Source: a virus
Virus record (IMG/VR): IMGVR_UViG_3300048597_000098
Location: 1-43,574 of that record
Direction: 5' to 3' (one strand)
Length of the DNA stretch: 43,574 bases
The notes below the pieces were generated by a model that was not told the origin of the DNA, ran no database searches, and saw only the letters and a list, made by a program, of their open reading frames with translations. The translations under genes were made by a program, and so were the position numbers. Positions 12,682 to 14,510 of this stretch are shown here, piece after piece (within the stretch, counting starts at the first letter, position 1; each line of letters opens with the position of its first letter).

Positions 12682-13007
12682 CCACCACGAACGTAACCCC
12701 CGAAGTCATCGCAGAGGCGAAGCGGCGGCTCACGACTGAAAACGGAACACTGTATCAGCAATGCGGCAACCTGAATGTCGTCGCCATCCTCGCCGAAGCC
12801 CTCGCATCCCCCGCATGGGTGCCGCCGGTTGATCCGGATTTGGTGCTGGCGCGGTCAGTGCTGGCCGAAATGCACCCTACTTGCGCTCACGCAATCAACT
12901 CGGGCGGTTGGGACGAAGCCCCACCTGTGCGCGAAACGCTTGCAGGCATCAAAGCCGCAGACCGCCGCGCCGGTCGCGCAGCCGAACGCGCCAGAGGAGA
13001 AGCGTGA
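12678..13007 (+). CDS. Hypothetical protein
   Basis: 109 residues, helical, starting MTTTNVTPEVIAEAKRRLTT with a basic, Ala/Arg-rich C-terminus (KAADRRAGRAAERARGEA). TAGGAGGAAATTC is an excellent Shine-Dalgarno for ATG 12678. It overlaps its neighbours by four bases and one base. Not recognised. Confidence 0.65.
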   Translation: MTTTNVTPEVIAEAKRRLTTENGTLYQQCGNLNVVAILAEALASPAWVPPVDPDLVLARSVLAEMHPTCAHAINSGGWDEAPPVRETLAGIKAADRRAGRAAERARGEA

Positions 13008-13909
13008 TGGCGCTCAATGATGAAAGCGAGGGAACAATGACCACCAACCTTGAGGCGCTGAAAGCAACGCTGGCGAAGGCAACGCCAGGGGATTGGGAGC
13101 GCGACAGCGAGAAAGGTGAGAACGCCTATGGTAGCGGCCCTGACTGTGGCGAGAATTACAAGGTTGCCTTGATCGGCGCGGCGGGACCGGATGGCAAATG
13201 GATGACGCTGTTCGACAGCCACAACAGCGATGCCGCCTCAGTCGAAGAAGAATACGACGAAGATGGTTACGGGTATGCGTGGGACGCGGTTGCCGAAGCC
13301 AACGCCGCCGCCATTGTCGCCGCGCACAACGCCCTCCCCGGCCTGATCGCCGAGCATGAGCAAGCCCTGGCGACCATCGCGGCGCTGCGGGGTGAGGTGG
13401 AGCGGCTGCGGGCTATGATAGACGGCCCGCTTGCTGACATTGCGGCTGAGAGAGCGCGGCAAATGTGCGTTGAAGGATGGACGCCAGAACACGACGACGA
13501 TCATAGCCTCGGCGAAGCGGTGGAGCCTTGCCAGTATTGCGGCCCCGGTGTGCGAACCGGCTTGCCGGGCAACGCCTGCGAGAACTGCATGAACACCGGC
13601 GTTCAGATCACCGACTCGGCTACGCTTGAAATCCGCAAGCTGTGGCTAGACAGCCTGCCTTGCAGCGACTTTGGCGACTATACCGAATGGGGCGACTATG
13701 ACGAGGCGCAACAGCGTTCGTTGAGCCGCTTTTTCCGCAGTGTCGCCGCAAGAAACCAGCAAATGCGCGCGCTATTGATGGAAGCAGCGGACGGCGAAAA
13801 TCTTGAAGGTGACGATTTGCGCACACGGCGTGACCGCGTTGTTGCAGCCGACCGCCTCGCCGAAGTCGCCCAGCATCTGCGGGCAGGGATGAAGGAGACG
13901 GGAGAGTGA
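13007..13909 (+). CDS. Ead/Ea22-like fusion protein
   Basis: 300 residues. Residues 15-135 resemble the lambdoid Ead/Ea22-type pattern (LEALKATLAKATPGDW, then EANAAAIVAAHNALPGLI, then a coiled coil LATIAALRGEVERLRAMI). The second half has the common phage signature DIAAERARQMCVEGWTPEHD (144-163), into which a CxxC...CxxC zinc ribbon (CQYC at 175-178, CENC at 191-194) is inserted. It looks like a fusion of two or three phage modules. ATG 13007 overlaps the preceding stop; ATG 13037 is a possible alternative. Function is unknown. Confidence 0.7.
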   Translation: MALNDESEGTMTTNLEALKATLAKATPGDWERDSEKGENAYGSGPDCGENYKVALIGAAGPDGKWMTLFDSHNSDAASVEEEYDEDGYGYAWDAVAEANAAAIVAAHNALPGLIAEHEQALATIAALRGEVERLRAMIDGPLADIAAERARQMCVEGWTPEHDDDHSLGEAVEPCQYCGPGVRTGLPGNACENCMNTGVQITDSATLEIRKLWLDSLPCSDFGDYTEWGDYDEAQQRSLSRFFRSVAARNQQMRALLMEAADGENLEGDDLRTRRDRVVAADRLAEVAQHLRAGMKETGE

Positions 13910-14130
13910 GCGAGTGGTTGATTGAGTGCTGGCCATCGCGACAGGAAGGTGGGCAGCGCGTTGGGACCGGCCCAAGCGGCGTTCGCGTCACCCATGTCCC
14001 GAGCGGCCTACAGGCTGCTTGCGTGACTGATAGAAGCCAATGGCGGAACAAACAGATAGCCGTCGAAATGCTCGAAGCGGCTTTCACGAACCCCCTCTAT
14101 TGCGGCCCGGCACCGGAGAAGATGCCATGA
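13906..14130 (+). CDS. Stand-alone GGQ (RF-1) domain, mini release factor-like
   Basis: 74 residues that align along most of their length with the peptidyl-tRNA hydrolysis domain of class I release factors and ArfB: GGQ at 15-17, SGVRVTHVPSG at 24-34, and DRSQWRNKQIAVEMLEAAF at 42-60, matching the family pattern GGQ-V-x5-S-x-V-R-(I/V)-T-H-x-P-(S/T)-G and RSQ-x2-N-K-x2-A. The codon-recognition domains of RF1/RF2 and the basic C-terminal tail of ArfB are absent. It should be able to enter the ribosomal A site only with help or at vacant mRNA, releasing nascent chains. GTG at 13906 overlaps the previous stop. Domain call is strong, biological role is inference. Confidence 0.8.
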   Translation: MSEWLIECWPSRQEGGQRVGTGPSGVRVTHVPSGLQAACVTDRSQWRNKQIAVEMLEAAFTNPLYCGPAPEKMP

Positions 14131-14510
14131 CCCCCGCCCTTATCGTCGCACTCCAAGACGGCACTGCAACGAACGAGATGCTGGCGGAAAGCCGGGGGTG
14201 GCGGATGCTACCGCCGTTGTATTACTGGCGCTCGCCGGATGGCCGGTCGTGCGACAATCCGCCCGACTACCTTGCTGATCTGCGTCTGACCCTCGCTGAC
14301 ATTGAGGCGAAGGGGTGGAAATGGTGCAAGGCCATGACGGCGTTGCGGGACGGCAGCTTCGCCGGTTTCGAGGTCGAGATTTACACCGCCGACATGATGA
14401 AGCTGCTGGCAGACTGCCAGACGAACGGCACCATTGCCGCTGACCAAGCCGCCCTTAACATCGCCTACGCCAAGGCCCAACTCGCAGAGCAGGAGAACGA
14501 CCGTGGGTGA
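14127..14510 (+). CDS. Hypothetical phage protein
   Basis: 127 residues, starting MTPALIVALQDGTATNEMLA, with many Trp and Tyr residues (RGWRMLPPLYYWRSPDGRSC, GWKWCK) and an alanine-rich helical C-terminus. It resembles small phage proteins that contain a W.W core and an ALN.A C-terminus, but I cannot name a family. Overlaps both neighbours. Confidence 0.6.
   Translation: MTPALIVALQDGTATNEMLAESRGWRMLPPLYYWRSPDGRSCDNPPDYLADLRLTLADIEAKGWKWCKAMTALRDGSFAGFEVEIYTADMMKLLADCQTNGTIAADQAALNIAYAKAQLAEQENDRG

Follow-up and report, generated by a model that had tools for sequence, protein, structure and literature searches.

A compact phage family of stand-alone class I release factor catalytic domains with a candidate role in ribosome rescue

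Introduction

Can a phage protein of 74 residues that carries the GGQ motif of class I release factors (RFs), and little else, release a nascent chain from the ribosome? The question is raised by a gene on the plus strand of a 43,574-base IMG/VR viral contig, the whole of which is referred to here as the window. To our knowledge, all characterised bacterial release and rescue factors need a second part, i.e., a decoding domain, a basic tail or a helper, to reach the peptidyl-transferase centre (PTC).

Results

The gene occupies positions 13906..14130 (+), begins with GTG, ends with TGA and is translated as MSEWLIECWPSRQEGGQRVGTGPSGVRVTHVPSGLQAACVTDRSQWRNKQIAVEMLEAAFTNPLYCGPAPEKMP. A Shine-Dalgarno-like AAGGAG, read from the sequence at 13892..13897 (+), lies 8 nt before the GTG at 13906, which overlaps the stop of the upstream open reading frame (13007..13909, +), while the following frame (14127..14510, +) opens with an ATG at 14127 that shares bases with the TGA at 14128-14130. 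The spacing of AAGGAG and the overlaps at both ends thus make it look like a normal member of a densely packed phage operon, and translational coupling of the upstream frame to the GGQ gene is probable. The 300-residue upstream product had no Pfam domain and only weak PHROG matches, to several unknown families; a zinc-finger-like CxxC..CxxC stretch (CQYCGPGVRTGLPGNACENC) was noted in it. No family match was found for the downstream frame, and the possibility that an ArfB-like tail was hidden there was ruled out, as its product is not basic.

The start, the length and the motifs given in the sequence-only reading were borne out by the translation. Thus, GGQ is present at residues 15-17 (GGT GGG CAG, 13948..13956, +), VRVTHVPSG at residues 26-34 and RSQ..NK at residues 43-49; the second includes the HVPSG turn common to RF1 and RF2 (residues 30-34, 13993..14007, +) and the third the SQ..N signature (residues 44-48, 14035..14049, +). 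The extended loop motif described for bacterial RFs, uxGxGGQ (PMC6514570), is replaced by SRQEGGQ, which, like the loop of most relatives, has no Gly two positions before GGQ.

The RF hydrolysis domain claimed in the same reading was recovered in an HMM search with Pfam RF-1 (E 2.2e-11, 44.2 bits against a gathering score of 35). Among the matches listed in a PDB sequence search, RF1 and RF2 chains led, with E down to 1.4e-8, and no ArfB/YaeJ chain appeared. NCBIfam models of RF1 and RF2 covered residues 6-60 only and scored approximately 45 bits versus cut-offs of at least 370, and the release_prfH model scored 41 bits versus a cut-off of 167. The match to PHROG phrog_20323 (E 3e-13) placed residues 2-61 on positions 5-63 of 73.

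The fold predicted by AlphaFold2 with 14 family sequences (pLDDT 82) comprised strands at residues 4-8, 26-30 and 36-39 and a helix at 45-60, the surroundings of GGQ and the C-terminus being modelled less confidently. It matched domain 3 of RF1/RF2, in agreement with the earlier assignment, and the 50 Foldseek matches listed were class I release factors, including mitochondrial RFs, PrfH and C12orf65. The match to 6c4h_v, a 63-residue chain of the PTC region of RF2 (TM 0.69 by target length), indicates that the window protein amounts to the part of a release factor that faces the PTC, with little added.

The earlier statement that codon-recognition domains and a basic tail are missing was also upheld. 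The 74-residue protein has a net charge of about 0 and a single K/R after the last helix, the tail being AFTNPLYCGPAPEKMP, with one K. Similarly, the post-helix tail contained 0-2 K/R in all 14 family sequences tested and total charge was near zero, so that an ArfB-like tail is excluded. Sequence, predicted fold and about 18 relatives together support the view that the window protein is a class I RF catalytic domain standing alone, with neither a decoding module nor an ArfB tail.

Single-protein scans yielded few compact relatives, and profile searches were needed to find them. From profile scans of IMG/VR and one GTDB scan, a separate group of about 18 proteins was defined, 63-86 residues long and essentially confined to phages (L029, L053, L055, L057, L058/L115, L120, L111, L106, L104/L105, L030, L031, L107, L108, L002, L006-L009, L038 and, from a Devosia prophage, L010). 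L029 was 61-65% identical to the window protein, and the identities of the compact set to the window protein were 37-61% in a 20-row alignment representing about 18 distinct phage lineages. Only M1, G15, G16, Q17, S44, Q45, N48 and M55 were invariant in this alignment, with G20, H30, P32, A37 and R43 nearly so. The codons for the GGQ glycines differed synonymously between family members, and close relatives gave dN/dS values of 0.12-0.18, L030/L031 about 0.3 (overall 0.12-0.32); the compact relatives are under purifying selection. The invariance of GGQ, the synonymous variation of its glycine codons and the low dN/dS thus indicate that the motif is maintained by selection. The surrounding loop has been rewritten, from (S/A)GxGGQHVN(K/T)T in cellular RF1/RF2 to WPxRxxGGQHVG in the compact family, with identical spacing in many members; in effect, GxGGQHVN has become xxGGQ.VG.

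Origin from RF1, RF2 or PrfH was not separated in a domain tree of 67 columns. The compact set, excluding the protein of Pseudomonas phage Boevelstad, was compatible with a single clade (p-AU 0.50), which is not thereby proven.

Carriers of the compact gene were mostly unrelated phages. By terminase, the phage nearest to the window was only about 38% identical. A sample of 297 genomes of the Devosia order contained one compact copy, which lies in a Devosia prophage region and is followed by terminase genes; the remaining matches listed were long frames, mostly of 346-406 residues, typical of RF1/RF2. A second search of nearer relatives with a stricter cut-off found the compact form in 1 of 61. 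A chromosomal source of the gene was sought in both sets of genomes, and the sole compact copy was that of the prophage, directly downstream of which is a gene for a NusG N-terminal domain protein (L010:5208-5783).

An all-against-all comparison of neighbours within 4.5-6 kb revealed no conserved partner gene, save in close relatives and among generic phage genes. The compact gene behaves as a single-gene accessory module, and absence of a conserved partner is the expectation for a factor that relies on host machinery. Individual neighbours included a TROVE/Ro60-like gene (L030:4472-5872), which encodes a vWA domain and runs into the start of the compact GGQ gene directly downstream, a YqeY (GatB-like) gene on a 148-kb phage contig (L031:5192-5629) and, beside the RF-1 relative L005, an RNA ligase; in Acinetobacter phage AB1I1T, an RF-1 protein without GGQ (L048:1114-1347) is encoded within a tRNA array. 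These RNA and translation genes favour a role in ribosome rescue, but such signals vary between phages and may be accidental. No RtcB was found among the window proteins scanned.

The description of a minimal phage GGQ protein as unusual proved overstated, as PHROG, RefSeq and UniProt hold phage RF-1 domain proteins of 64-78 residues. Thus, phrog_20323, a family of 73 positions annotated "RF-1 domain peptide chain release factor", was matched by 8 of the 9 compact members scanned, and UniProt A0A6J5NIJ4 is a 72-residue phage protein named "Peptide chain release factor class I/class II". GGQ was absent from half of the phage RF-1 proteins compared (15 of 30, e.g., those of Ac42, KARL-1, AB1I1T, OLIVR5, LPPA15, Vibrio phages and Iggy), in which H.P[ST]G and SQ..N largely persist; the latter signature is invariant in the compact family. 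The RF-1 label by itself is therefore no proof of catalysis, and the domain can take a non-catalytic role.

Four Otagovirus proteins named "peptide chain release factor 1" (L004:2974-3450, L046:1189-1668, L051:1141-1614 and L043:1138-1533) carry GGM in place of GGQ and are fused to the C-terminal domain of ribosomal protein L7/L12, which passed the Pfam cut-off in all but one of them. By sequence, these proteins would represent a natural catalytic-minus, ribosome-linked variant, and the fusion suggests a link to the ribosome also where the catalytic glutamine is missing. Their sister in the tree was the compact GGQ protein of phage Boevelstad (support 97/84, 99/96), which suggests that GGQ loss and domain gain probably occurred on the Otagovirus branch. 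A second phage group of 117-136 residues (Mycobacterium Sebata type; L036, L037, L039 and L064) formed its own clade (support 100/97-99) and has a longer C-terminal part, with GGQ retained in three members and GGS in L036.

No published work on these compact phage proteins came up in literature searches, and the word phage is absent from a survey of RFs (PMC6514570). The RF-1 domain and its stand-alone occurrence in phages are already known. What appears to be new, from comparison of the sequences, is a separate GGQ-keeping, loop-remodelled and tail-less group that was not set apart in the sources searchable.

Discussion

The reading to which we give slightly better than an even chance, from sequence and the predicted fold, is that the window protein is a bare class I RF catalytic domain that would hydrolyse peptidyl-tRNA at the PTC independently of the codon, likely for ribosome rescue. 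Hydrolysis, action on the ribosome and the rescue role are what we infer for it. The GGQ loop would insert into the PTC of the large ribosomal subunit, peptidyl-tRNA would be hydrolysed with no codon read, and any ribosome or tRNA left holding a nascent chain during infection would be set free. Possible causes of such stalls are mRNA decay and the cutting of tRNA or mRNA by host defence nucleases. Delivery might depend on a host partner or an unlinked phage partner, or else the substrate may be one whose A site is open, e.g., split 50S-peptidyl-tRNA. The invariant GGQ of the compact family supports hydrolysis. Replacement of the GxGGQHVN loop residues of cellular RFs argues against this reading. 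Jumbo phages carry PTH2/Pth1 (PMC7824862) and a pelagiphage carries ArfA (PMC12753301), which makes ribosome rescue a plausible phage need.

The first of the alternatives, which we regard as unlikely, is that the protein is a non-catalytic binder of ribosomes or RNA, or a decoy, e.g., for host partners of RFs or for the GGQ methylase PrmC. It draws on the GGQ-less half of the phage RF-1 proteins, in which the other two signatures are retained, and on the fused GGM forms of Otagovirus, but within the compact family GGQ is invariant amid divergence elsewhere; a decoy of the compact type would retain GGQ as well and so stays compatible with the sequence. The evidence for catalysis applies equally to shut-off of host translation, in which host ribosomes would lose their nascent chains non-selectively at an early stage of infection, and the protein's want of a tail or decoding domain to give specificity and its accessory, sporadic distribution accord with this. 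The sequence evidence would fit rescue and host shutdown alike, but non-selective hydrolysis would strike phage translation too, no sequence sign of targeting to host messages was seen and we consider shut-off decidedly unlikely. A Pth-like hydrolase acting off the ribosome on dropped-off peptidyl-tRNA, instead of in the PTC, would accord with the absence of a 30S-binding part from the window protein, but known RFs use their GGQ chemistry in the PTC and we know of no GGQ domain that hydrolyses free peptidyl-tRNA. Even with the precedent of phage-borne Pth2/Pth1 (PMC7824862), this activity is quite improbable. Finally, the short length and sporadic occurrence of the gene would suit a functionless, decayed derivative of a host release factor, but such decay is scarcely credible given dN/dS of 0.12-0.32, invariant catalytic residues, a Shine-Dalgarno-like site, close overlaps with both adjacent genes and the existence of about 18 relatives that are intact in unrelated phages.

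A family of about 70-residue catalytic-only proteins with invariant GGQ and no linked partner raises the question of the minimum needed for peptide release, and of whether phages bring their own ribosome rescue against defences that target translation. The family also carries a warning, in that many phage genes are annotated "peptide chain release factor" without the catalytic motif.

Comparison with known systems places the window protein near several of them. It has the same size as phrog_20323, a stand-alone phage RF-1 domain, but the high scorers of that group examined (Ac42, KARL-1 and AB1I1T) lack the GGQ that the compact family keeps. It aligns without gaps over residues 6-59 with domain 3 of RF1/RF2 (PF00472), sharing GGQ, H.P[ST]G, SQ..N and the fold, whereas domains 1, 2 and 4 and the reading of stop codons are absent. 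The RF domain is also common to PrfH (RF-H), which is found in a conflict and RNA-repair setting (PMC6514570), but neither the decoding-type second domain of PrfH nor its association with RtcB was seen for the window protein. ArfB/YaeJ/ICT1 likewise have the RF catalytic domain without codon recognition and differ in their basic C-terminal helix, which is missing from the near-neutral window protein. As loss of the last 10 residues abolishes YaeJ/ArfB activity (PMC3950681), the bare domain may not reach 70S ribosomes, and its entry route would have to differ, i.e., by way of a partner or of a target with a free A site. C12orf65/mtRF-R, an RF domain without codon-recognition parts, was matched weakly by sequence (E 0.03) and also by fold. 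Its partner is MTRES1 and its target the split large subunit of mitochondrial ribosomes carrying peptidyl-tRNA, and release on intact ribosomes was not seen (PMC8786322). By analogy, mtRF-R may offer a model of action on split large subunits, and it is possible, though doubtful, that the window protein is its bacterial counterpart, a tail-less, codon-independent phage RF that acts on split 50S-peptidyl-tRNA or via a host partner and undoes ribosome jams caused by defence nucleases; if so, it would be the smallest functional release factor known.
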